Source: a virus. From it: 34,361 nucleotides of DNA. Positions 10,458 to 26,105 of this stretch are shown piece after piece (the first letter of the stretch is position 1; each line of letters begins with the position of its first letter). The DNA lies in the IMG/VR virus record IMGVR_UViG_3300043773_000339, positions 1 through 34,361 of that record; one strand, 5' to 3'. Position numbers and translations under genes: made by a program. The notes below the pieces were generated by a model that was not told the origin of the DNA, searched no databases, and was given only the letters and a program-made list of their open reading frames with translations.

Positions 10458-11266
10458 TAGGTACTCCTCTTGGGTCGTCTGTGGCGGAGCGTAATGTGCG
10501 ATCCCTCGGGCCATCCTTTCTTGCTCTTGTAGGCGATGAACTCTGGATATGTCTCGACTAGGTACTTGGCTTCCTGGATCTTGCGCGGCATACGCTCTTC
10601 TTTTGTGCCGCAACCTCCCGGCGTGTAACGTTTGCAGTCGGGGAGGATCCATTGGTTCACGACGACGACGCCGAACTCGCGCAGATTGAGCGCGCACCAG
10701 CAGTAGTCGTCCATAGTCTGGACGTTAGTGTCGAAGCGTAGGTGGGACTTGCGTAGCGCCCATGCCCTGCCGTCAGCGAGGATGTTCATGCCCCACTTGT
10801 TACGGCGGTATGGTGCGTTATCGACTCCAGCGAAACCGAGCAGATGCGAGCCGATGCGTGAGCAGTATCGGGCACCTTGTTCGCAGCGCAGGAGAAACTG
10901 CTTCATGCTGATCGGGTTCTTGAACCGCTTGGCGTACTCGTTCTGATTGGCGAGTGTGATGTCGAGGACTTCCTCGTAGGTCTCGTCGTATCCTGCTAGT
11001 TCCGATACTGACTTCAGATCGTCTACCAGGAAGACTGCCCATTCACCGTCTTCCATCAGGTCGAGTGCAGCGTTACGGTTGTATGCGAGTCCAGCAGGCT
11101 GATTTGTTACGACGAGGCGGTCCTCCCGTACTGTGCCGCCTTTGATGTGCCCTTCTCGCTGCTCTTCGGTATGCACCAGCACCGTATGGTCGATGCCCTC
11201 TGTTTCTAGCATCAGGCTTGTCGTCATACTGTCGTAACGGTTCGAGGCGAATACAAAGACCTTCAC
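10457..11266 (-). CDS. TET-associated-type glycosyltransferase (GT-A fold)
   Basis: The 269-residue protein looks like a GT-A glycosyltransferase: an N-terminal Rossmann start (KVFVFASNRYDS), GLAYNRNAALDL (59-70), an acidic metal/donor motif FLVDDLK (79-85), and MDDYCWCALN near residue 195. It is coupled by GTGA to a TET/JBP-type dioxygenase. That pairing is the known signature of phage glycosyltransferases that add sugar to 5-hydroxymethylcytosine in DNA. DNA as the acceptor is inferred from the neighbour, because GT-A sequence alone does not give the acceptor. The following gene overlaps by one base. Confidence 0.7.
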   Translation of the reverse strand: MKVFVFASNRYDSMTTSLMLETEGIDHTVLVHTEEQREGHIKGGTVREDRLVVTNQPAGLAYNRNAALDLMEDGEWAVFLVDDLKSVSELAGYDETYEEVLDITLANQNEYAKRFKNPISMKQFLLRCEQGARYCSRIGSHLLGFAGVDNAPYRRNKWGMNILADGRAWALRKSHLRFDTNVQTMDDYCWCALNLREFGVVVVNQWILPDCKRYTPGGCGTKEERMPRKIQEAKYLVETYPEFIAYKSKKGWPEGSHITLRHRRPKRST

Positions 11267-12138
11267 TTTGCCTTCACTTTCCTACCGGGGATGAAGTCGC
11301 TCTCACCGCGAATAGCGGAGGCGATTCCTTCTTCGCGCTCGGTGCGCTTCTCCTGGCCTCTCGCGGTTTCCATCGCGTAGGTGAAGCAGTCTTTCATGCC
11401 GCGAAGCGCATAGTAGACGACGCTGTAACGGTAGCCGTCTCGCTTGGTCTGCGTCATCGGCGTAACGCCGTGAACCAGGCCGTGCCCGTAGAAGTAGAGC
11501 GAGTAACCGTCGCGAGCGGAGCATACGATGTCGTACTCGGGGATATGGAGATATCCGCCAGTAACGCTGCGGCGCACGACTGGCATCGCGGACCATGTAT
11601 CAAAGTTGAAGCCGTCGCGATGGTATGGCAGCGTGCTTGTCTTGTTGATAACGCCGCTAGTCCAGAGCGCTCCTTCTGCCATGCGCCAGTCGTCAGCGAC
11701 CTCTTGGATTACGCGGGAGTCCCGTTCATGGATCTCTGGGAACACCTCCCGCATTTGATCTGCCAGCGTGTAGGCCATATTCACGATGACCGCGTGCGCT
11801 TCGGGATCTTCCTGCGACAGAGTCGTGGGTCGGCAAGACTCTCGTGACACCATCGGCTTGCGAGGAGACATACCGAATACGCGGGAAACGTTGATGACAC
11901 CCTTCACTCCGCGCAGAGTGTGACCGTATTTGATGCGAAGGACGGCACGCCGAAGTTCAGCCACCTTCGCCCTGGGCAGCGGAAGGTACGCGAAGAGCGG
12001 TTCCCCCGTATCGGCGTCTCGAACGACGCACGCTTCCGTTACATTGGCTTCGATATCGGGGACCATTTCGCCGACGTACTTATCCGCGTCCTCTTTCGAC
12101 ATGACGCGCCGCATCGTCAGGTTTCTGTAATCTCCCAA
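11263..12138 (-). CDS. TET/JBP-family 2-oxoglutarate/Fe(II) dioxygenase
   Basis: The 291-residue protein has the jelly-roll dioxygenase motifs in order: LPYHRDGFNFD (170-180, giving H173 and D175), GYLHIPEYDI, GHGLVHGVTP (H223), and YRYSVVYYAL with R237 for 2-oxoglutarate. The spacing and the YHRDGFN form are those of phage TET/JBP enzymes that oxidise 5-methylcytosine (or thymine in JBP). It overlaps the end of the ParB-like gene and is coupled to a glycosyltransferase. The start is uncertain: TTG 12138 has GGAGG 7 bases upstream, ATG 12114 lies two bases after the ParB-like stop, and all motifs are retained either way. Confidence 0.8.
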   Translation of the reverse strand: MGDYRNLTMRRVMSKEDADKYVGEMVPDIEANVTEACVVRDADTGEPLFAYLPLPRAKVAELRRAVLRIKYGHTLRGVKGVINVSRVFGMSPRKPMVSRESCRPTTLSQEDPEAHAVIVNMAYTLADQMREVFPEIHERDSRVIQEVADDWRMAEGALWTSGVINKTSTLPYHRDGFNFDTWSAMPVVRRSVTGGYLHIPEYDIVCSARDGYSLYFYGHGLVHGVTPMTQTKRDGYRYSVVYYALRGMKDCFTYAMETARGQEKRTEREEGIASAIRGESDFIPGRKVKAK

Positions 12139-16189: not shown

Positions 16190-16639
16190 GTTTGTTGCGA
16201 GCCATGCGCGACCCTCGTTGGTGATGCGTAGGACGCGCTGGAATCTACCGGATGATCCGCGCCGAGTGATCTCGTTGCCGTTTACTATCGCTACTTCGAT
16301 CAACCCTGAGTTGAGCAGATCGCTGACGCGCTTGCTCGCTGCCCAAGGATCAACCTCGGCAGCGGTAGCGGCTTCTTCCGCCGTCGCGTTCTTGTGCCCG
16401 AATGCAGTCAGCAGAACGCGCAGCATCGACTCCCGGCTAAGGCTGCGCGCGGCAGCCTTGCTTGTCGCCGGATCGCTACCCCGCGCTAGTGCCTTGGGCT
16501 TCGGTGCCTTATCGGTGAGCCATCCGCGCTCGCGGTCAAGTTCACACACCTGACAGGCATCTCCGCCGCAGGCATGTGGCCGCGTATCGACGCTCGAAGT
16601 TATGCTGTCGAACAGGCCGGTCATCCTGCGCTCGGACAT
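16184..16639 (-). CDS. Winged-helix DNA-binding protein
   Basis: The 151-residue protein has a CxxC pair near residue 29 (CGGDACQVC), a linker, and a C-terminal winged helix (about 70-150) with MLRVLLTAFGHKNATAEEAA, AASKRVSDLLNSGLIEV and a basic wing RRGSSGRFQRVLRIT. This resembles MarR/ArsR-like regulators of phages. ATG 16639 has GGAG 7 bases upstream; ATG 16624 gives an ATGA overlap with the preceding gene and is also possible. Likely a regulator or a host-takeover factor; no target visible. Confidence 0.55.
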   Translation of the reverse strand: MSERRMTGLFDSITSSVDTRPHACGGDACQVCELDRERGWLTDKAPKPKALARGSDPATSKAAARSLSRESMLRVLLTAFGHKNATAEEAATAAEVDPWAASKRVSDLLNSGLIEVAIVNGNEITRRGSSGRFQRVLRITNEGRAWLATNE

Positions 16640-17271
16640 CCCACATCTCCCGTCGCGTCGTAGTATTGGCAGTAGTCTCGGCAGAATCGCTTCGGCATCT
16701 CAGGCTCCGGGATGACATCGAGATTGTTCTCGATCTGCGCCAGCCACAGGAGACCCTTAACCGCCATATCTATGTCGTATGGCTCGCTGTGGATCTTGAT
16801 GTCGAGTTCGTTCCCGTCGCGGGGAAGCCCGACGAGAGTGACCGTATCGACGCGCCGACCCGTGTTCTCCAGCAGATACCCGTAGATCTGCACCTGAGTG
16901 CGCTGCTGCGATGAAGGAAACGCCGACGCCTTCTTCTTCGTGATCGTCTTCCAGTCAACAACCTCGAACTCCTGAGTGTCGTAGCAGTCAACGTGACCGC
17001 GCATACCGTCGTACTCAACCTCCACTTCCAGTAGGTAGCGCGGATTGAAAGGATCATCCTTCCGCTTCATGTTCTTTTCGATAGCGGAATGGATCGCGGT
17101 CCCCATCCAAGCCGCCATGCCAAGCGTGTCCTCGTTCGTTGGCTGAGAGCCAAGGAGACGATGCCAGACACGACGCCGACACCCGCCTACCTCGCTCGGG
17201 CCTACCGCCTTCTGCAGCGATCTCTTGCTTCCCTTGTCGTTAACGAGCGACATCACGAACTCTTTATCCAT
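16621..17271 (-). CDS. Cas4/RecB-like PD-(D/E)XK exonuclease with Fe-S cysteines
   Basis: The 216-residue protein shows the RecB/Cas4 nuclease pattern: GGCRRRVWHRLLG (Cys31), MGTAIHSAIEKN (His), GHVDCYD (Asp) and FEVVDWKTIT (D-x-K), followed by QVQIYGYLL. Three C-terminal cysteines (RFCRDYCQYY and VGC) complete a probable four-Cys iron-sulfur cluster with Cys31. Such enzymes resect DNA ends; paired with the Rad52-like protein two genes upstream they would form a recombination system. ATG with GGAAGGG upstream. Confidence 0.75.
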   Translation of the reverse strand: MDKEFVMSLVNDKGSKRSLQKAVGPSEVGGCRRRVWHRLLGSQPTNEDTLGMAAWMGTAIHSAIEKNMKRKDDPFNPRYLLEVEVEYDGMRGHVDCYDTQEFEVVDWKTITKKKASAFPSSQQRTQVQIYGYLLENTGRRVDTVTLVGLPRDGNELDIKIHSEPYDIDMAVKGLLWLAQIENNLDVIPEPEMPKRFCRDYCQYYDATGDVGCPSAG

Positions 17272-18192: not shown

Positions 18193-18903
18193 TTAGTCGG
18201 CGATGCCGTCGATGATTTCGAGCCGGTCAAGGATGATTTGCCGCAGAGTCGCCCCGGCATCCCCACTTGATACGGGATCGTCGATACAACCCGCATCAGT
18301 AGCGGTGTCCCAAATGGCTTTCAACTCCTCGCGGTCCAGAGAGACAGAGGCAACCTCTACCCATGGGGCCAGGATCGCCTGCCTAGCCGTGTCCGTCTTC
18401 GCCCTGACTGGCTCCGCAACGTCTTCCCAGTCCACCGGAGGGACGAGCGTAGCCTTCACGACGTCGTTCCGGTTCCCGTTGTCGTACAGAGACAGGCCGA
18501 ACTGCGTGCCTAGGTTGATCGCGGCACGCTTCAGAGCATCAGACTCGGCGGTCTTGACCGCCATATCGTGGGCCTCTCCCCGTTGCGGCAGAGTAGCCGA
18601 CCCGACTGCGGCCTCGGTGTAGGTAGTGTCGCCAAGGAAGTCCCCCTGCGCGTCGATACGCAGCCGCATGATGACCTTGTATCCGACGTTCCATCGACCC
18701 TTCTCGTCCTTGTCTTCGAACATCAGGTCCGCAGAAAGGACATCGGCTGACCATCCCCCGAATCCGAAGATACGGATGAGATGAGCCTTTACATCCCACG
18801 CCTCCAAGTAGGAGAGGCTGATGCCTGACTGGTTGCGTTGTGCGATGCGAGATGCGTTGAGTGGCTTCAGCAGTTGCGCGTACTGCTCTGTCGTAAGTTT
18901 CAT
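18193..18903 (-). CDS. Rad52-like single-strand annealing protein
   Basis: The 236-residue protein has FGFGGWSADV, GDTTYTEAAVGSATLPQRG, and HDMAVKTAESDALKRAAINL followed by GTQFGLSLYDNG. This is the conserved core of Rad52/Redbeta-type annealing proteins of actinophages. It pairs complementary single strands during phage recombination and repair. The acidic C-terminal half after residue 160 is variable. ATG start with GAGGGG upstream. SSB, a Cas4/RecB-like nuclease and RusA are all in the same run, making a complete annealing-based recombination set. Confidence 0.8.
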   Translation of the reverse strand: MKLTTEQYAQLLKPLNASRIAQRNQSGISLSYLEAWDVKAHLIRIFGFGGWSADVLSADLMFEDKDEKGRWNVGYKVIMRLRIDAQGDFLGDTTYTEAAVGSATLPQRGEAHDMAVKTAESDALKRAAINLGTQFGLSLYDNGNRNDVVKATLVPPVDWEDVAEPVRAKTDTARQAILAPWVEVASVSLDREELKAIWDTATDAGCIDDPVSSGDAGATLRQIILDRLEIIDGIAD

Positions 18904-19838: not shown

Positions 19839-20182
19839 CAGAAAACCTCCTCTTGTTCCATCGCTGACTCGCAGAGATTGCAGCCGAACCACCAGCGCGG
19901 GTACGTCACGAGATCCTGCCGCGACATATCGCACCAGCGGCACATCCCAAACTCATCGAACACCGGGGATGCGGAATCGCTCTTGATGTATTCCAGGGCC
20001 GCGCTGAGCGACGGCTCAGTACGAAGCGGCGAGTAATACAACGTCCCGTACTTATGGACGCGGATACTGAACAGCGGAACGTCGGCATCCCCTGGCTGAA
20101 GCCACGGGCTGCGCTCTATGTAAACCGTGTAACGCTGGTCGCTGCACTCCCAGCGGTCCTCGCTCACTCGTCGTAGTTCCAT
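19838..20182 (-). CDS. Hypothetical protein with C-terminal zinc ribbon (114 aa)
   Basis: ATG with AGAAGGG upstream as part of a leader shared by several genes here. The N-terminal half is beta-rich (RWECSDQRYTVYIERSPW) and the C-terminal third has CRWC and GCNLC, a two-CxxC zinc site. No family recognised. The gene follows the structured gap at 20210-20277. Confidence 0.55.
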   Translation of the reverse strand: MELRRVSEDRWECSDQRYTVYIERSPWLQPGDADVPLFSIRVHKYGTLYYSPLRTEPSLSAALEYIKSDSASPVFDEFGMCRWCDMSRQDLVTYPRWWFGCNLCESAMEQEEVF

Positions 20183-20209
20183 GCGAATACCCTTCTCTCG
20201 TAGGCTAAC

Positions 20210-20277
20210 GATCGCTAGCCAAGGCGAGGCAGGAGGGAAAGGGAAGGAACCCTCCTGCCTCACGTTGGTGAGCGATC
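20210..20277 (-). other. Structured intergenic RNA with nested stems
   Basis: An outer 7-bp stem (20210-20216 with 20271-20277) encloses a perfect 12-bp stem (20226-20237 with 20250-20261, GAGGCAGGAGGG on the plus strand). The outer arm begins inside the TGA of the DUF932 gene, as with the hammerhead elements upstream. No hammerhead core is present and no T-tract follows, so neither a hammerhead nor a standard terminator. Alternative hairpins (CTCAC/GTGAG, GGCTA/TAGCC) are also possible. Confidence 0.6.
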
Positions 20278-21274
20278 AGGCAGACAGCAGCGCGTACGCC
20301 TTCTGCTTGATCGGTTCGACAGCACCCAGGAAGACACGCTCGGCGCGCGCAACATCGGCGTCACGCTTGCCTGCCTTCACGGGCTTCACCCAGTCAGCCC
20401 ACTCCGTGATCGCGTTGAACGCTGCCCAGCGGGTACCGGCGACGTTCTGCTGGGTCGGGGCGAGCCAAAGACCGGCAACTTGCTCGCGAGTCTCCTCAAC
20501 GCGCATCATCTGAAGGCTGCTCATGTCCTTCTGCATCGGGAACAAAGCCTCTGTGAACGTGTCGAACTCGCGGCGAGACATCTCACTAGCAACGAGTTCA
20601 TTGACAGCGGCCTGGAAAGCGTCGGCGTAATCCACAACGAGGCCCATCGCCTCGCGTGCCTGCTGAATCTTGCCGCGAATGTTGGCGGTGTGCTTCATAG
20701 ACCACTTGCTGACCGCGCTTTGAAGCCCGAACTGGACCGTGTTGGCGCAGACGGGACGCACCGCAGTAACGAAAGCGGTGAAAGCCTTGCTCCCGTCGTG
20801 GCTAGTGGAGCAGACAAGGTACAGATCAACGGTGTCCTGGCCTCCGGCGATGCTGATGTGCTGCGGCATCTTCATCGAAACGAACACCTGAGTCCCGCCA
20901 CGCAAAGATCCGGCTGTCTCAAAGACCGCACCGGACTCATCGACCAGGTTGTTAAGGAAGTCGAACGCCTCCTTGTTCTGGATGACCGTGTACTGCTTGC
21001 CAACGACGCCGAGACCCTGCACTCCCAACTTCGGGTGGTCGCGGTAAGTCATGTAGCGGTCGGGTGCGCTGACAATCACGACACCGTTGTCGGTTAGAAC
21101 CGGGGTCTGGACCGGATCGTCGGACTTGATGACGTCCCAATCCAACTGCGCGAGCCGCAGAGCATCCTCTACGTTCTGCGCGCCATCGGTGATTGTGCCC
21201 AACTGGTGCCAAGGAACCTCGCGGTTGGAGAAGAACGCGGCACTACCGTCTTCGAATGTCTCTACTGCGTGCAT
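20276..21274 (-). CDS. DUF932 phage/plasmid protein
   Basis: The 332-residue protein contains REVPWHQLGT (about 19-28), GVVGKQYTVIQNKEAFDFLN, and VCANTVQFGLQ, the signature of the DUF932 family found in phages and plasmids. Members have been linked to replication or recombination but have no settled function. Its mRNA leader contains hammerhead copy A and the AAGGGTATTCC ribosome-binding leader; a different RNA structure follows its stop. It is the largest protein of the upstream part of the minus-strand block. Confidence 0.8.
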   Translation of the reverse strand: MHAVETFEDGSAAFFSNREVPWHQLGTITDGAQNVEDALRLAQLDWDVIKSDDPVQTPVLTDNGVVIVSAPDRYMTYRDHPKLGVQGLGVVGKQYTVIQNKEAFDFLNNLVDESGAVFETAGSLRGGTQVFVSMKMPQHISIAGGQDTVDLYLVCSTSHDGSKAFTAFVTAVRPVCANTVQFGLQSAVSKWSMKHTANIRGKIQQAREAMGLVVDYADAFQAAVNELVASEMSRREFDTFTEALFPMQKDMSSLQMMRVEETREQVAGLWLAPTQQNVAGTRWAAFNAITEWADWVKPVKAGKRDADVARAERVFLGAVEPIKQKAYALLSA

Positions 21275-21296
21275 TGGAATACCCTTCCGGTTAGGT

Positions 21297-21352
21297 CTGA
21301 CGATCTCGTCAGCGGCACTATTCAGTACCGGACCCCTCTCGGGGTTTCGATC
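21297..21352 (-). ncRNA. Type II hammerhead ribozyme, copy A
   Basis: RNA order: stem II GATC, core GAAA, stem III CCCC-GAGA-GGGG, then UC with predicted cleavage between 21331 and 21330. Stem I follows as CGGTAC/GTGCCG, then core CTGACGA and the second strand of stem II GATC. This copy has a 4-bp stem II and only a weak pseudoknot (TGA with TCA). It begins three bases after the upstream stop and ends before the DUF932 ribosome-binding site. All invariant hammerhead core bases are present. Confidence 0.88.
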
Positions 21353-21355
21353 TAG

Positions 21356-21622
21356 TCAGTTGAAGACGTAGACAGTCCCGTCGCCGTAGTCGTCATCGTC
21401 ATCTTCGGGATCGCTGATCGCGAACTCGCCGTGGTAGTGACTCCACTTAACGGGCATCAACTCCACGTTGTCGGGGATGAAGCGGTAGGCGATACGAGTG
21501 CCCCAATGGTCTGCGCTCGCTGCGCTGAACATGATCTGCTTGTCTGGGTCCAGCGCTTGTAGTTGCTCAATCAACTCACCTACCGTGAGCGACTTGCCCT
21601 TGATCTCTGTAACTGTTGCCAT
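21356..21622 (-). CDS. Acidic hypothetical protein (88 aa)
   Basis: The start ATG overlaps the preceding stop (TAATG) and has a strong GAAGGAGG site 8 bases upstream; an earlier in-frame start at 21646 would lie inside the preceding tiny gene. The N-terminal part has SLTVGELIEQLQALDPDKQI, a pattern seen in many small phage proteins, and the C-terminus holds a run of aspartates. Function unknown. Its stop is followed at once by hammerhead copy A. Confidence 0.65.
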   Translation of the reverse strand: MATVTEIKGKSLTVGELIEQLQALDPDKQIMFSAASADHWGTRIAYRFIPDNVELMPVKWSHYHGEFAISDPEDDDDDYGDGTVYVFN

Positions 21623-21726
21623 TACTGCATACCTCCTTCGATCCATCCGGCGACACCCATCAGGGCGATGAGTGCCAGGGTTGCGAGTGTGGCGAGAACG
21701 ATCTCGCCGCGCGCCGTGAGTTTCAT
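21622..21726 (-). CDS. Small membrane protein (34 aa)
   Basis: Starts in an ATGA overlap and ends in a TAATG overlap, so it is coupled to both neighbours. The product has a basic N-terminus (MKLTARGE) and one membrane helix (IVLATLATLALIALMGVAGW) ending in a short tail. The tight coupling supports a real gene. Could be a small inner-membrane factor; too short to call a holin. Confidence 0.6.
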   Translation of the reverse strand: MKLTARGEIVLATLATLALIALMGVAGWIEGGMQ

Positions 21727-21938
21727 GCGATTACCTCCACCTTTAGGACGCTGTCGCGGTACGAGGTACTGATTTCACGGTGATGGATACGCGCCGAGTA
21801 GTAAAACCGACCGCGCACTAGGCGTGCCGTATCGGTATCCGTGATCTCCCATGACGCCGTAGTGCCATCCTGGCTGCACACGACGCTATCTATTTGCGCG
21901 TTAGTGACTGGCAGTCTGTCGCACTTGCACTTATTCAC
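21723..21938 (-). CDS. Hypothetical protein (71 aa)
   Basis: GTG start in a GTGA overlap with GGGGGAGG upstream; an earlier ATG at 21980 lies inside the preceding gene and is rejected. The product has an N-terminal CKC and a beta-rich body (TASWEITDTDTARLVRGRFY). No family recognised. Coupled by ATGA to the small membrane protein. Confidence 0.55.
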   Translation of the reverse strand: MNKCKCDRLPVTNAQIDSVVCSQDGTTASWEITDTDTARLVRGRFYYSARIHHREISTSYRDSVLKVEVIA

Positions 21939-22147
21939 TTTGCCTCCCCCTCGTTCGGAGTGATCGGTGCGCCGAGCCATTCCTCTACTGCCTTGATGTG
22001 GAACAACTCGGGCGCGTTACTCATCTGCTTTACTTCGATCGGCTGAAGCGGATCCCAACCGATTGCTTCCATCTCGTTCAGCATGTTCCTGAGCGAGAAG
22101 ATCGTCGGGCGACAAAGGATGTAACCCGTCTGCAATCCTTCAACCAT
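21935..22147 (-). CDS. Hypothetical protein (70 aa)
   Basis: ATG with GAAGGGGAAG upstream, the leader left after predicted cleavage of hammerhead copy B. The product is a small mixed protein (ILCRPTIFSLRNMLNEMEAI, WDPLQPIEVKQM). No family recognised. First gene of a coupled set of four (this gene and the next three down to 21356) that ends at copy A. Confidence 0.6.
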   Translation of the reverse strand: MVEGLQTGYILCRPTIFSLRNMLNEMEAIGWDPLQPIEVKQMSNAPELFHIKAVEEWLGAPITPNEGEAK

Positions 22148-22163
22148 GCGCTTCCCCTTCTGT

Positions 22164-22225
22164 TAGCCTGTCTCATCAGGCACAGGCGGCTATCCCTGTG
22201 CGACCCCGCGAACGGGGTTTCGACT
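22164..22225 (-). ncRNA. Type II hammerhead ribozyme, copy B
   Basis: Stem II GTC/GAC, core GAAA, stem III CCCCG-TTCG-CGGGG with a UUCG tetraloop, then UC with predicted cleavage between 22202 and 22201. Stem I is GCACAGG/CCTGTGC (7 bp), the second core is CTGATGA, and the pseudoknot is TAGCC in loop I with GGCTA after stem II. The G of the upstream UAG stop is the first base of stem II. The element fills the gap before the gene at 21935-22147. Confidence 0.92.
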
Positions 22226-22511
22226 AGAACGGCGGAGTGAGCGACTGCTCCTTGGCAGACTCCCATCCGGCGTCCCAACCCTTCGACCAACCGCGATCGA
22301 ACTCAGCAAACTCGGCGTCCCAGATGAGTTCGCGGATCTTCTGGACGTCATCCTTGCTAACGCCCAATTCGCGGAAGTAGTGGATGAGCGCGTGGTACAT
22401 GACGCGGCTCTCGTTCGAGGCACCCTGCGTCGGGTACTGCTCGACGAACCGCCAGGCACCAGCGATAGCCATGTCGATCGTCTCGGGTAGTGGCGTGCGT
22501 GTTTCTGTCAT
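22224..22511 (-). CDS. Hypothetical protein (95 aa)
   Basis: ATG with AAAGGGAAG upstream. The product is helical (MAIAGAWRFVEQYPTQG, YHALIHYFRELGVSKDDVQK) with a Trp/Gly-rich C-terminus. No family recognised. Flanked on both sides by hammerhead elements, so it would be released as a single-gene RNA if both cleave. Confidence 0.6.
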   Translation of the reverse strand: MTETRTPLPETIDMAIAGAWRFVEQYPTQGASNESRVMYHALIHYFRELGVSKDDVQKIRELIWDAEFAEFDRGWSKGWDAGWESAKEQSLTPPF

Positions 22512-22527
22512 TGGCTTCCCTTTCGTC

Positions 22528-22587
22528 TCGCCTGTCTCTTCAGCGCCAGGAGGCGAACCCTGACGGACCCCTCACGGGGTTTCGACT
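22528..22587 (-). ncRNA. Type II hammerhead ribozyme, copy C
   Basis: Stem II GTC/GAC, core GAAA, stem III CCCC-GTGA-GGGG (GNRA loop), UC with predicted cleavage between 22566 and 22565. Stem I is CGTCAGG/CCTGGCG (7 bp with one G-U), core CTGAAGA, pseudoknot TCGCCT with AGGCGA. The stop UAG of the upstream gene overlaps stem II. It ends nine bases before the AAAGGGAAG site... of the downstream gene region. Confidence 0.92.
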
Positions 22588-22888
22588 AATCGCGCGTCGC
22601 GTAGATACGGATGACGCGGCGCTCGCCGTACTCGTTCTCGGTGCCGTACTCGTAGGACCAGATCTCCGTGTCTCCGTGGTGGTCGATCTCGACTGCCTCG
22701 GGGTTAGTAGCGAGTGCCTTCAGTACCTTGTTGAGCCGGATCTTGACGGTGCGGTCGCTCTTAGGCGTGTAATGATTGACGTCGGCGTGCTCTGGCGCGG
22801 CGTAGGTGCCGCCACAGCCGCAGGCGCACCCGGTCTTACCGCAGTACGTCTTCTCGATGTTCTTGAATGAGATACCGATGGTGGTCAT
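22586..22888 (-). CDS. Hypothetical protein with N-terminal Cys/Gly cluster (100 aa)
   Basis: ATG with AAAGGGAAG upstream. Residues 16-27 read CGKTGCACGCGG, a compact CxnCxCxC cluster likely to bind metal. The C-terminal part is beta-rich (DTEIWSYEYGTENEYGERRV). No family recognised. A separate gene at 22964 also has many cysteines. Flanked by hammerhead copies C and D. Confidence 0.6.
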   Translation of the reverse strand: MTTIGISFKNIEKTYCGKTGCACGCGGTYAAPEHADVNHYTPKSDRTVKIRLNKVLKALATNPEAVEIDHHGDTEIWSYEYGTENEYGERRVIRIYATRD

Positions 22889-22906
22889 TGTGCTTCCCTT
22901 TCGTCA

Positions 22907-22965
22907 CACCTGTCTCGTCAGCACGGGTCGGTGAGTTCCCGTGGACCCCTCTCGGGGTTTCGACT
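22907..22965 (-). ncRNA. Type II hammerhead ribozyme, copy D
   Basis: Stem II GTC/GAC, core GAAA, stem III CCCC-GAGA-GGGG, UC with predicted cleavage between 22944 and 22943. Stem I is CACGGG/CCCGTG, core CTGACGA, pseudoknot CACC with GGTG. The upstream UAG stop shares its G with stem II. It fills the gap before the gene at 22586-22888. Confidence 0.92.
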
Positions 22966-23167
22966 ATTCGGCACCGCACTCACAGCCGCGCTTGTTGCAG
23001 CGGTTGGGCGCGGCCTGCCGGAAGACCCGCTCGCCGCAGAGTGAGCAGCAAGTCATCGCGGCGATGCAGGACTTCTGTTCAGTCGGGCAAGTGATGACCC
23101 GCACCCATGCCCCGTACTCGTTGCGGTACTCAAAGTCCAGCGTATGAAGGCTTGTCGCGGTCATCAT
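22964..23167 (-). CDS. Cysteine-rich hypothetical protein (67 aa)
   Basis: ATG overlaps the preceding stop (ATGA). Seven cysteines lie in the C-terminal 40 residues, including CCSLCGERVF and RCNKRGCECG, consistent with a zinc-binding fold. The N-terminal part (HTLDFEYRNEYGAWVRVITC) resembles the start of the neighbouring 81-residue protein (YRYEFSRDSGEMLVIRI), hinting at related strands. Function unknown. Confidence 0.6.
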   Translation of the reverse strand: MMTATSLHTLDFEYRNEYGAWVRVITCPTEQKSCIAAMTCCSLCGERVFRQAAPNRCNKRGCECGAE

Positions 23168-23409
23168 GCCGTCACCGCCTGGTTCGTCTCGGGACAGATC
23201 AGAGCCGCATATCCCTTCGCTGCGCGCAGCGTTGAGAACGGCTGCCCCAGGGACTGCTCTCGCCAGTAGCCGCGACCGTCGCGGTACTGCGAAACGAGTG
23301 CGTAGCGGGGGCGATCCCAGAGATGGTCAATGCGAATGACGAGCATCTCGCCGCTGTCGCGGGAGAACTCGTAGCGGTACTCGAAGCCGTTCTTAACCCA
23401 CTTGTCCAT
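23164..23409 (-). CDS. Hypothetical protein (81 aa)
   Basis: ATG with AAAGGGAAG upstream; the long in-frame extension would run through hammerhead copy E and an overlapping gene, and is rejected. The product is beta-rich with aromatic residues (YRYEFSRDSGEMLVIRIDHL, YRDGRGYWREQSLGQPFSTL). No family recognised. Coupled to the cysteine-rich gene that follows. Confidence 0.6.
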   Translation of the reverse strand: MDKWVKNGFEYRYEFSRDSGEMLVIRIDHLWDRPRYALVSQYRDGRGYWREQSLGQPFSTLRAAKGYAALICPETNQAVTA

Positions 23410-23428
23410 CGTTCTTCCCTTTCGTTGT

Positions 23429-23490
23429 TCGCCTGTCTCGTCAGGTGCGGTAGGCGATTCCCGCACGACCGCCTCTCGGCGGTTTCGACT
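23429..23490 (-). ncRNA. Type II hammerhead ribozyme, copy E
   Basis: Stem II GTC/GAC, core GAAA, stem III CCGCC-GAGA-GGCGG, UC with predicted cleavage between 23467 and 23466. Stem I is GTGCGG/CCGCAC, core CTGACGA, pseudoknot TCGCCT with AGGCGA. Stem III differs from copies A-D by compensating changes. The upstream UAG stop overlaps stem II. Confidence 0.93.
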
Positions 23491-23737
23491 AACGCTTGAT
23501 CGTGGAGGTCTTACCATCGGGCCACTCCACCAGGAGCGGACGCTCCGCATAAAGTGAGCGCACCAGCGTGAGCGTTTCGGCCTTGCTGCTGTACCCACCA
23601 GGGGTTGCGGCAGCGATACGACCATCAGGCATCGTGACCAAACGCTCGGGAAGGTTGTAGTACCAGCGGACCCCGCGCTGCTCGGAGTAGCCTCCGAGCG
23701 AGCGGATGCCTGCACGCGTAACCTTGATTGTTGTCAT
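23489..23737 (-). CDS. Hypothetical protein (82 aa)
   Basis: ATG with AAAGGGAAG upstream. The product has MTTIKVTRAGIRSLGGY at the start and YYNLPERLVTMPDGRIAA in the middle, a small mixed alpha-beta pattern. No family recognised. Flanked by hammerhead copies E and F, so it is another potential single-gene RNA unit. Confidence 0.6.
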   Translation of the reverse strand: MTTIKVTRAGIRSLGGYSEQRGVRWYYNLPERLVTMPDGRIAAATPGGYSSKAETLTLVRSLYAERPLLVEWPDGKTSTIKR

Positions 23738-23756
23738 TGTTCTTCCCTTTCGTCAT

Positions 23757-23818
23757 TGACCTGTCTCATCAGGCGCAGTAGGTCAGTTCTGCGCGACCGC
23801 CTCTCGGCGGTTTCGACT
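23757..23818 (-). ncRNA. Type II hammerhead ribozyme, copy F
   Basis: Stem II GTC/GAC, core GAAA, stem III CCGCC-GAGA-GGCGG, UC with predicted cleavage between 23795 and 23794. Stem I is GCGCAG/CTGCGC, core CTGATGA, pseudoknot TGACCT with AGGTCA (compensating change relative to copies C and E). The UAA stop of the upstream gene directly abuts stem II. Confidence 0.93.
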
Positions 23819-24078
23819 TACTCCCAGGTGGCGCTCTCGGTGATCCTTCCGTCAGACATCCCGAAGGAGTTCTGAAGACCGATGCGGATCGCGTGGAACT
23901 TCTCGCCGTCAGCCTTCGAGAAGTCGTTACGGCGCTCGGTACGGAACTCCATCTGAATCTCGTCACCCTTATCGGCGATCGCCGAAGCAAGGTCACGGAT
24001 CAGGCAGGCAGCCTCCGACTTGCTCATCGTGAACCAGCAGACGTTACGGTCATTCATCGGCGTGTGCGTCGTGGTCAT
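23818..24078 (-). CDS. Hypothetical protein (86 aa)
   Basis: ATG 15 bases after an AAAGGGAAGG stretch that directly follows hammerhead copy G. The product has a helical middle (MSKSEAACLIRDLASAIADK) and a beta-rich second half (EIQMEFRTERRNDFSKADGE). No family recognised. Flanked by copies F and G. Confidence 0.6.
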   Translation of the reverse strand: MTTTHTPMNDRNVCWFTMSKSEAACLIRDLASAIADKGDEIQMEFRTERRNDFSKADGEKFHAIRIGLQNSFGMSDGRITESATWE

Positions 24079-24094
24079 TGTGTTTCCTTCCCTT

Positions 24095-24153
24095 TCGCCT
24101 GTCTCATCAGCACCGGGGGGCGAGTTCCGGTGGACCCCTCACGGGGTTTCGAC
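24095..24153 (-). ncRNA. Type II hammerhead ribozyme, copy G
   Basis: Stem II GTC/GAC, core GAAA, stem III CCCC-GTGA-GGGG, UC with predicted cleavage between 24133 and 24132. Stem I is CACCGG/CCGGTG, core CTGATGA, pseudoknot TCGCC with GGCGA. It starts five bases after the upstream stop. The pseudoknot strand directly abuts the AAGGGAAGG ribosome-binding site, so pseudoknot formation and ribosome binding may compete. Confidence 0.92.
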
Positions 24154-24158
24154 GGGTG

Positions 24159-24524
24159 CTACCAGCCGTACTTGCGCTTGATGTTTCCGACCGTTGCCTC
24201 TCGGTCAAGGAACGGACGCTGCGACGCTTCGAGGCACTTGCCGTACCACTCAGCGGCAGTAGCGAGGTGCCTTGCGGCGTCGTAGGCAGACATCTGCGAG
24301 TAACGACTCTCGGGGTCTTCCAGGCCTTCGCGCATCTTGCGCGCATAGGCGAGGTAGCCCTTGGTCATCTCTCGGCGACTCGCTTGGACGAGCCGATCCA
24401 TCTCGTCGTCGTGAATAACGCTCGAAACCTTCAGGCTCCGCTCGTAGTAGTCAACGACCTGGAAGATGATCAGCGCAACGTCGTCAATACGAATAACGCC
24501 GAGGTCAATAACCTTGGTCTGCAT
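24159..24524 (-). CDS. Hypothetical protein (121 aa)
   Basis: ATG with AAAGGGAAG upstream. The product is largely helical (VALIIFQVVDYYERSLKVSS, YDAARHLATAAEWYGKCLEA) with many charged residues. No family recognised. It is the first clearly supported gene of the minus-strand block, lying between hammerhead copies H and G. Confidence 0.65.
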   Translation of the reverse strand: MQTKVIDLGVIRIDDVALIIFQVVDYYERSLKVSSVIHDDEMDRLVQASRREMTKGYLAYARKMREGLEDPESRYSQMSAYDAARHLATAAEWYGKCLEASQRPFLDREATVGNIKRKYGW

Positions 24525-24540
24525 TGGCTTCCCTTTCGTT

Positions 24541-24613
24541 TCGCGTGTCTCTTCAGCGTTAGGACGCGACCCCTAACGGACCCTCCTACCAGTAACGGCA
24601 GGAGGGTTTCGAC
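24541..24613 (-). ncRNA. Type II hammerhead ribozyme, copy H (extended stem III)
   Basis: Stem II GTC/GAC, core GAAA, a longer stem III CCCTCCT/AGGAGGG with a 12-base apical part, UC with predicted cleavage between 24579 and 24578. Stem I is CGTTAGG/CCTAACG, core CTGAAGA, pseudoknot TCGCGT with ACGCGA. It is the first copy on the transcript. The sequence upstream is a doubtful short gene, so this copy may sit in the 5' leader and trim the 5' end. Confidence 0.92.
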
Positions 24614-24638
24614 TGGGAAGTCAACTGAACGCTCGGGG

Positions 24639-24845
24639 TTACTTCCGGCTCGTCTGTCCTCGCGTCGCCCCTGCCGCTCGCTCTAGCGTTTGCACGGTGA
24701 TCGCATCGCAACGATGGGGGTGGCGAAGAAGGTCCCTTCCGGTTCTCCCTCTGCACGGATCGGGCTGGTTCACTAGGCGGTTCCGGTCGCGACGCGCGAT
24801 CACTTGTCTCGGTGATCTTGCGGTTAGTGGCTCTTCTACGCTCAC
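24639..24845 (-). CDS. Doubtful small ORF (68 aa)
   Basis: A GTG-started frame with an ordinary-looking composition (RSPRQVIARRDRNRLVNQPD, CDAITVQTLERAAG). It lacks a ribosome-binding site and ends 26 bases before hammerhead copy H, unlike the other genes. An overlapping frame from ATG 24849 ends inside copy H and is Arg/Pro/Ser-rich, and a plus-strand frame (24697-24954) also exists. Any of these, or none, may be real. Confidence 0.25.
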   Translation of the reverse strand: MSVEEPLTARSPRQVIARRDRNRLVNQPDPCRGRTGRDLLRHPHRCDAITVQTLERAAGATRGQTSRK

Positions 24846-24849
24846 CCAT

Positions 24850-25173
24850 TCGCCGGAGGCGGTGCCCCGATCCGCTCTTCAGTTATGCCCCTATCTTACC
24901 GTGTCAGACGGTAGATGGTGGTATTTCCCGAAAAGTTGTTTGAGGGCAATTTGAGCCCCCATCCCTGTCCCCTACCCCGGTGTCCCCTTAAGGGGGGATA
25001 ACCCCTCAGATTGCTTCTGAGGGCCTTCCAGCCTGACCGAGGCCGGGAGCCTGACCGGGAGGCTCTGGCGCGTGTAGAATGGTCCCAGCAACGTGTCCAC
25101 CCGTGACCCCGCTTCCGCCGTGGCTCATGTGGCCCCAGGGATGCCGGGGTTGCCGCGCGTCCATGGGAGCGGA
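24850..25173. promoter_or_regulatory. Divergent intergenic region between early and tail gene blocks
   Basis: About 320 bases separate the minus-strand block from the tail operon, so promoters for both are expected here. Visible pieces are a palindrome CCCCTTAAGGGG, a CCTCAGA/TCTGAGG hairpin near 25005-25023, and two GCCTGACCG repeats at 25030-25056. A TAAGAT box reads leftward at 24893-24898, but no convincing -35 is seen. No gene was recognised. An origin cannot be excluded but is not shown. Confidence 0.4.
25051..25080 (+). promoter_or_regulatory. Candidate promoter of the tail operon
   Basis: CTGACC (25051-25056) and TAGAAT (25075-25080) form a sigma70-like pair with an 18-base spacer; the -10 box matches five of six consensus bases and the -35 four of six. 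It lies about 90 bases before the first tail-operon start. A stem GAGCC/GGCTC overlaps the -35 side. Confidence 0.4.
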
Positions 25174-25386
25174 ATGGCGACCTATCGGGTCCTCGTAGGA
25201 ATCGACTACGCAGGCAATCGTGCCGAACCGGGCACCGTCGTCAGCGACCTACCCGCCAGTAGCGTTACTTGGCTCCTCGCGCAGAACATCATCGAAGCCG
25301 CAGATAACGCTTCAGACGACAAGCCTGTAACACCAAAGACTACTGCTGCGCGTGAGCCTAAGTCTCCCAGCAAGGGAGGCGAATGA
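25174..25386 (+). CDS. Small phage protein of the neck/tail junction (70 aa)
   Basis: The ATG has GGGAG about 6 bases upstream; a GTG at 25093 would add 27 residues without support. The product reads TYRVLVGIDYAGNRAEPGTV then LPASSVTWLLAQNIIE, followed by a Lys/Pro/Ser-rich tail. This pattern is common in small actinophage proteins encoded near head or tail genes, of unknown role. It overlaps the next gene by ATGA. Confidence 0.6.
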   Translation: MATYRVLVGIDYAGNRAEPGTVVSDLPASSVTWLLAQNIIEAADNASDDKPVTPKTTAAREPKSPSKGGE

Positions 25387-26105
25387 TGCCCACATTTCGT
25401 CACGGTAAGCGCACCGTCGTTCTGCTGAACGGGACCGATATGTCTCCGTTCTTGAACGAGGCTACGCAGACCCAGGAGATCGAAACTGCGGAGACCACTA
25501 CCTTCGCAGATTCGGACAAGACGTACATCACCGGCCTCGGCGACGGGACGATCTCCACGAGCGGACTATTCGACGGAACCGCTAACGCTTCTAACGATGT
25601 CCTCAGCGGCGCTATCGGGCAGGAAGATAACACCTTCACGGTGCTGCCCGAAGGCGCTACCGCAGGCGCGAGAAGCATCATCGCTAACGGCCAGTTGACC
25701 TCCTACGAGGTGTCCTCTCCGGTGGGTGATGTTGTCGCTATCTCAGCAGAAGTTCAGGCCGATGGAGGACTGTTCTCCGGTCGCGCTCTGAACGCTCTCA
25801 CCAACACGGGAACGTCGGCATCGCTGACCGGCATTAACGACGGCTCATCGACCAGCGGTGGGGGCCTCTTTAACCTTCACGTTACGGAGAACACGCGCGA
25901 CGGCGCGGCTACCGTCAAGGTCCAGCACTCAGCAGATAACGCAACCTGGGTGGACCTCGTCACATTCTCTTCCGTCAGCGCCAGCAGCACGGCGGGAGAG
26001 AGCATCACCAGCACGGGCACGGTGAATCAGTATCTCCGTGCAGCACACACCCTCGCCGGATCGTCCGGCTCCATCACCTATCACGTTTCGGCAGCAAGGA
26101 GATAA
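25383..26105 (+). CDS. Major tail protein, long form with extra C-terminal domain
   Basis: The first 125 residues match the following gene closely: QEIETAETTTFADSDKTYIT and TSYEVSSPVGDVVAIS are shared almost word for word. This is the tail-tube protein fold. After residue 130 comes an added beta-sandwich domain (KVQHSADNATWVDLVTFSSV, QYLRAAHTLAGSSG) of the type found as a surface decoration on some actinophage tail tubes. ATG 25383 overlaps the previous stop; ATG 25386 is a second option. It may be a variant tube subunit or a tube decoration. Confidence 0.75.
   Translation: MMPTFRHGKRTVVLLNGTDMSPFLNEATQTQEIETAETTTFADSDKTYITGLGDGTISTSGLFDGTANASNDVLSGAIGQEDNTFTVLPEGATAGARSIIANGQLTSYEVSSPVGDVVAISAEVQADGGLFSGRALNALTNTGTSASLTGINDGSSTSGGGLFNLHVTENTRDGAATVKVQHSADNATWVDLVTFSSVSASSTAGESITSTGTVNQYLRAAHTLAGSSGSITYHVSAARR

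Follow-up and report, generated by a model that had tools for sequence, protein, structure and literature searches.

Why would a phage early operon carry a candidate self-cleaving ribozyme at one gene junction after another? The question is raised by the virus record IMGVR_UViG_3300043773_000339, analyzed here as a single window of 34,361 nucleotides (nt), or 34.4 kilobases (kb), covering positions 1 to 34,361. Its minus strand holds an early operon of small genes without assigned function, followed by a DUF932 gene, and eight elements (E1 to E8) with the features of type II hammerhead ribozymes lie on that strand between 24.6 and 21.3 kb. The likely answer is that eight self-cleaving type II hammerheads punctuate the first part of the operon and, through a predicted cleavage by the RNA itself, form the 3′ end of each gene.

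Multiple co-oriented hammerheads were described by Perreault and colleagues in 2011 as flanking single prophage genes or short gene blocks, and processing into single-gene mRNAs was proposed for such clusters; at other loci, three clusters cleave in vitro and one in Escherichia coli (PMC3088659). The role of prokaryotic hammerheads and the reason for their clustering in phages are open questions according to reviews (PMC6155905, PMC10085705), as is the reason that ribozymes are enriched near other ribozymes (PMC10085705). The present locus, together with its relatives, points to one specific role that can be tested, namely 3′-end formation of the preceding gene, and unannotated arrays in cultured Streptomyces phages make RNA-end mapping feasible in the laboratory.

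Detection and Structure of the Elements

The first-pass annotation of this DNA had described eight minus-strand elements with a hammerhead core. A structural scan of both strands for stem II, GAAA, stem III, UH, stem I, CUGANGA, and the closing strand of stem II, in that order, returned exactly those eight from the whole window, all on the minus (coding) strand. The same scan gave no match in 40 dinucleotide-preserving shuffles of the whole window. GAAA, the U-A pair, the H before the cut, and CUGANGA are intact in 8/8 elements, and at the seventh, variable core position all four bases occur across the family.

A search with covariance models had also been proposed in that annotation, and the Rfam model RF02276 (Hammerhead_II), run on the window with cmscan, detects seven of the eight elements, so that the refutation test set there, a lack of matches for most copies, was passed. 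Four score above the curated cut-off of 37 bits: E1 at 24547..24613 (match 24614-24539, 42.9 bits), E4 at 23435..23489 (23490-23427, 39.1 bits), E6 at 22534..22586 (22587-22526, 39.8 bits), and E7 at 22170..22224 (22225-22162, 49.3 bits). Another three fall under it, at 28.9-36.1 bits: E2 at 24101..24153 (24154-24093, 36.0 bits, expectation value (E) = 0.0007), E3 at 23763..23817 (23818-23755, 36.1 bits, E = 0.0006), and E5 at 22912..22964 (22965-22904, 28.9 bits, E = 0.05).

These seven share a stem II of 3 base pairs (bp) and a pseudoknot, a feature of the majority of type II hammerheads, in which loop I pairs with the tail immediately 5′ of the ribosome site. E8 (21297..21359, core 21302-21352) has neither an RF02276 match nor a pseudoknot. 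Its stem II is long and bulged, pairing CTGAC-TA-GATC with GATC-GTCAG across 21359-21297, which places E8 in a second class whose stem II is extended. Loop I of E8 reads TGAATA, and comparable TGRAYG loops are found in the arrays of Streptomyces phages. From E1 to E8, the cut is predicted after C24579, C24133, C23795, C23467, C22944, C22566, C22202, and C21331.

Evidence for Retention of Ribozyme Structure

Covariation was assessed in 38 distinct family elements, drawn from the window and the records L009-L013. Six positions of stem I are standard-paired in all 38, each showing as many as six pair types, and the pairing of stem III is likewise kept, one cell excepted. The pseudoknot strands of the family form a mean of 4.80 bp with their own partner versus 3.22 bp when partners are swapped, and the own-partner mean is reached in 0/2000 permutations. 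The pseudoknots of other viruses behave in the same manner (277 elements; 3.95 bp with the own partner versus 2.70 bp swapped; 0/500 permutations). Because the scanner demands the core, the invariance of the core is circular, and a structure-led scan tolerating up to two core mismatches was therefore run; it returned no decayed copy with complete stems in the family or around the array.

Stems I and III and the pseudoknot change in sequence and stay paired, which argues that the elements are kept as ribozymes. The earlier assignment to type II hammerheads oriented with the genes thus gains from three sides, as pairing covaries, the pseudoknot is specific to each element, and the array is conserved in relatives. 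That these hammerheads split the polycistronic RNA is a prediction from sequence, and it is supported as the best reading.

Position at Gene Junctions and Stop Codons

Hand-checked genes, from gene 1 to gene 12, define eleven junctions in the 24.6-21.3 kb stretch. A ribozyme occupies each of the seven non-overlapping junctions and none of the four overlapping ones. The elements at these seven junctions stand in close register with the upstream stop codon. Four (E4, E5, E6, and E7) share the last base of a TAG with the first base of stem II, E3 directly adjoins a TAA, E2 starts 5 nt after a TAG, and E8 holds the TGA of gene 11 inside the outer strand of its stem II.

The same register is seen in other viral contigs, found by the stop-codon-blind pattern GTCGAAAC...GTC...CTGANGAGAC. 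With open reading frames (ORFs) of at least 50 codons, an ORF ends at -8..+3 nt from stem II for 101/126 of the viral elements among the matches listed, a non-random sample that takes in some loci matched by both this pattern and a stop-codon-bearing one, by which they were first found. At random same-strand positions, the figure is 238/6300 (3.8%). As far as the literature shows, an upstream stop codon that adjoins or overlaps the ribozyme is an addition to what has been published.

Linkage to the Upstream Gene

The close relatives L009, L010, and L012 carry eight elements each. Their ribozymes follow the fixed order E1, E2, E3, E4, E5, X, E6, E7, E8, with some missing, X being a slot absent from the window. 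E1, E3, and E5 have counterparts in all three relatives, E4 in L009 and L010, E2 in L012, and E8 throughout L009-L013.

The gene directly 5′ of a ribozyme is constant in 4/4 genomes for the pairs gene 2-E3, gene 5-E5, gene 6-E6, gene 7-E7, and gene 11-E8, and one further gene is paired with X in 3/3 genomes. The ribozyme 5′ of a given gene varies: E1 or E2 precedes gene 2, E3 or E4 precedes the E5 block, and X or E5 precedes gene 6. Slot E2 is missing from L009 and L010, slot E4 from L012, and slot X from the window; in every case the missing ribozyme and the gene before it are missing as a pair. The ribozyme stays with its upstream gene while the downstream neighbor changes, and a role at the 3′ end is therefore favored over a role as 5′ leader. 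This linkage is, to the extent that the literature shows, a further addition to published work.

Proposed Mechanism

Sequence, structure, covariation, conservation, stop-codon position, and linkage to the upstream gene are observed features of the array; cleavage, end chemistry, and any effect on stability or translation are inferred. Each ribozyme would cut in cis during RNA synthesis, a few tens of nt past the stop codon of the preceding gene. By analogy with hammerhead chemistry, the upstream piece is expected to terminate with the stem III hairpin and to carry a 2′,3′-cyclic phosphate, and the downstream piece would start directly at the stem I hairpin with a 5′-OH, held by the pseudoknot beside the ribosome-binding site. 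The products of the operon would be a leader RNA, five single-gene mRNAs, one mRNA of two genes (4-5), one of four genes (8-11), and a piece carrying the DUF932 gene and everything after it.

On general principles of RNA decay, exonucleases and 5′-sensing endonucleases should act poorly on an RNA whose 3′ end is a blocked hairpin and whose 5′-OH end is paired. The selected job of the ribozymes may then be to provide one 3′ end per gene that insulates, and probably protects, each message. More tentatively, the series ribosome site, gene, stop codon, and hammerhead might be inherited as an exchangeable cassette, such that an inserted gene brings its own self-cleaving terminus and an insulated mRNA. 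A ribosome terminating on the stop codon would sit over GAAA as well as the 5′ strand of stem III, and could in this way couple cleavage to translation.

Several observations weigh against 3′-end formation by the array, or narrow its reach. Minimum-free-energy folds of the isolated elements give stems I and III and usually omit the 3-bp stem II; activity must therefore rely on the pseudoknot. The claim that every intergenic gap holds a hammerhead is true of 24.6-21.3 kb and has to be limited to that stretch, because downstream same-strand gaps, such as the 93 nt at 20276-20182 and the 101 nt before 17271, have none. The array was likewise said to lie between genes, which describes seven elements and leaves out E1 (24547-24613), which has a conserved leader on one side and gene 1 on the other. 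Under another ORF rule, the stop codon is at stem II in 83/121 elements among the matches listed, and the mean 5′ slack, influenced by outlier ORF choices, is not clearly below that of uniform placement, although the median slack is 3 nt on the 5′ side versus 14 nt on the 3′ side once 15 nt have been allowed for the ribosome site. Proximity to stop codons may partly reflect compact genomes. The linkage is drawn from four related genomes in which gain and loss are unpolarised, and the gene 4 family, as an exception, is not kept with its ribozyme.

Alternative Explanations

The closest rival gives the elements to the following gene, as 5′ leaders whose paired 5′-OH end and pseudoknot tune translation or decay while the upstream 3′ end is a by-product. 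Stem I and the pseudoknot, the most elaborate part, do remain on the downstream RNA, the pseudoknot strand adjoins the GAAAGGGAAG ribosome site, and the HF1/HF2 element lies 13 nt before a start codon with a transcript 5′ end mapped there (PMC3088659). The leader role is nevertheless unlikely, as ribozymes in the relatives keep the same upstream gene next to different downstream genes, and the distance to the start codon is far more variable than that to the stop codon. Self-cleavage might also be incidental or nearly neutral, with the repeats persisting as short homologies for cassette recombination, like the boundary sequences of mosaic phages. The gene content between fixed ribozymes differs among relatives and a near-identical ACGAAAGGGAAG block is common to the flanks, as this would predict. 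However, recombination needs identical DNA, yet the stems and pseudoknots diverge with their pairing kept and the cores perfect, and we regard this explanation as improbable.

It is harder still to credit that the cut pieces are circularized, with adjacent ribozyme halves rebuilding a ligating hammerhead to give circular mRNAs. The open stems II of neighbors are compatible at 3 bp for 6/7 pieces in the window, and ends of the predicted chemistry suit RtcB-type ligation in principle. In the mixed-stem-II arrays L144, L131, L383, L384, and L046, however, stem II pairing is kept within the element and broken between neighbors, an arrangement that favors cutting in cis and weighs against circularization as the selected function. 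Circular or spliced products were sought by Perreault and colleagues and none were found (PMC3088659). A retrozyme-like circular RNA was set aside on the same grounds, neighbor pairing being broken in several arrays and no RtcB or RNA ligase being found among the records searched. Finally, the hairpins could be terminators or RNase III sites that match the hammerhead consensus by chance. Each junction does hold two GC-rich hairpins, and at the next junction there is a long hairpin resembling an RNase III site, but the unpaired bases of the core are kept without exception and the pseudoknots covary, so that the chance of this being correct is close to nil. A search for intrinsic terminators (a GC-rich hairpin with a U run) gave 0 sites in 20000-25600.

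Gene Content and Operon Setting

All genes of the stretch lie on the minus strand. Gene 1 (24159..24524, 121 amino acids (aa)) has no PHROG or Pfam match; it is taken from the ORF list, as are gene 3 (23489..23737, 82 aa) and gene 7 (22224..22511, 95 aa). Gene 2 (23818..24078) encodes 86 aa, and gene 6 (22586..22888) encodes 100 aa with a cysteine-rich N terminus. Genes 4 and 5 (23409-23164 and 23167-22964) overlap by 4 nt, and genes 8-11 (22147-21935, about 21937-21723, 21726-21622, and 21622-21356) all overlap; no ribozyme lies between the members of either group. Gene 12 (20276..21274) encodes the DUF932 protein (PF06067, phrog_1221), with a recombinase-like protein (18193-18903) and an exonuclease (16621-17271) encoded 3′ of it on the minus strand. 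Since the DUF932 gene has its closest named DNA relatives in Microbacterium, Gordonia, and Arthrobacter phages, an actinobacterial host is likely; the virus is probably a phage of soil actinobacteria. Elsewhere in the window, a queuine tRNA-ribosyltransferase-like gene (11263-12138, minus strand, phrog_6059) possibly points to deazaguanine base modification of DNA or tRNA.

A conserved leader of ~285 nt precedes E1 (about 24900-24615, minus strand). It starts with the palindrome TACCGT-CTGAC-ACGGTA and a -10-like TAAGAT, and one internal stem-loop is missing in L010. E1 may release the leader as a noncoding RNA; when the leader was checked as a structured RNA, the sequences were too alike for covariation to be judged. 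The junction after the DUF932 gene (20276-20211, minus strand) has no hammerhead and holds a conserved hairpin of ~25 bp interrupted by small internal loops. In L011 and L013 the outer stem has another sequence and is still paired, and the hairpin looks like an RNase III-type site.

Arrays in Other Genomes

Arrays of 4-8 type II hammerheads are present in many unrelated viral contigs, among them L055 (eight elements), L081 (seven), L144 (six), L163 (six), L046, and L131; the stop codon of the upstream gene is often at stem II in these arrays as well. Unannotated arrays also occur in cultured Streptomyces phages, namely ShakeNBake and PHTowN (7 each), phiRKBJ001, Gibson, Rooney, and Dryad (5 each), and Wentworth and Yara (4 each). 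Their elements have a stem II of 4 bp or longer, and no RF02276 score exceeded the cut-off in the three Streptomyces phages searched.

In six cultured Streptomyces phages, an otherwise complete hammerhead carries CCGANGA for CUGANGA (L384:14313-14369 and the equivalent place in L385, L391, L392, L393, and L395). In a viroid, this U4C change is described as slower, yet biologically sufficient (PMC3088659). Four co-oriented hammerheads each are found in L356 (a Lokiarchaeota metagenome-assembled genome), L266 (a Bathymodiolus symbiont), L304, L372, and L375, bacterial or archaeal contigs that are probably proviruses. Aminoglycosides are made by Streptomyces. They bind the hammerhead ribozyme according to work cited in PMC9239200, and an effect of aminoglycosides on the Streptomyces phages L383-L395 through their ribozymes is offered as an idea only.

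No hammerhead was seen in the regions read of Blett and Sonali, named actinophages with a DUF932 homologue, or in the region read of Mycobacterium phage Catdawg, which is related to the array contig L163. A BLAST search of phages with one element as the query gave chance matches only, and DNA searches with the L055 and L081 arrays returned no named relative.

Comparison with Known Systems

The polycistronic RNA of the T7 early operon is split at gene junctions into stable mRNAs by host RNase III. The T7 hairpins are cut by a host protein, whereas here the RNA is predicted to cut itself. If the proposed role is true, the array would be an RNA-only counterpart of that processing, as well as a ready design for insulating genes within operons.

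The elements resemble RF02276 in their core, in three stems of which I and III are closed and II is open, and in the pseudoknot, and seven of the eight are detected. They depart from it in the short 3-bp stem II of seven elements, and in E8 and the elements of the Streptomyces phages searched, which have no match over the cut-off. Theta ribozymes of gut phages, hepatitis delta virus-like RNAs, are likewise self-cleaving phage RNAs that shape RNA 3′ ends, but they have another fold and lie next to tRNAs, in whose maturation they act (PMC10879173), whereas the elements here lie at mRNA junctions.

The nearest precedent is the set of clusters reported in 2011, in which several co-oriented hammerheads also flank single phage genes (PMC3088659). 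Because both the clustering and the idea of processing were published there, the array is less unprecedented than the first-pass annotation thought in stating that no phage operon was known to hold a hammerhead in every intergenic gap. The text of that report makes no mention of stop codons or of linkage between gene and ribozyme (PMC3088659). The present array differs in that eight elements fill every non-overlapping junction of a 3.3-kb stretch, with the stop codon joined to the ribozyme. It is an unusually complete set within the already known clustering of ribozymes in phages.

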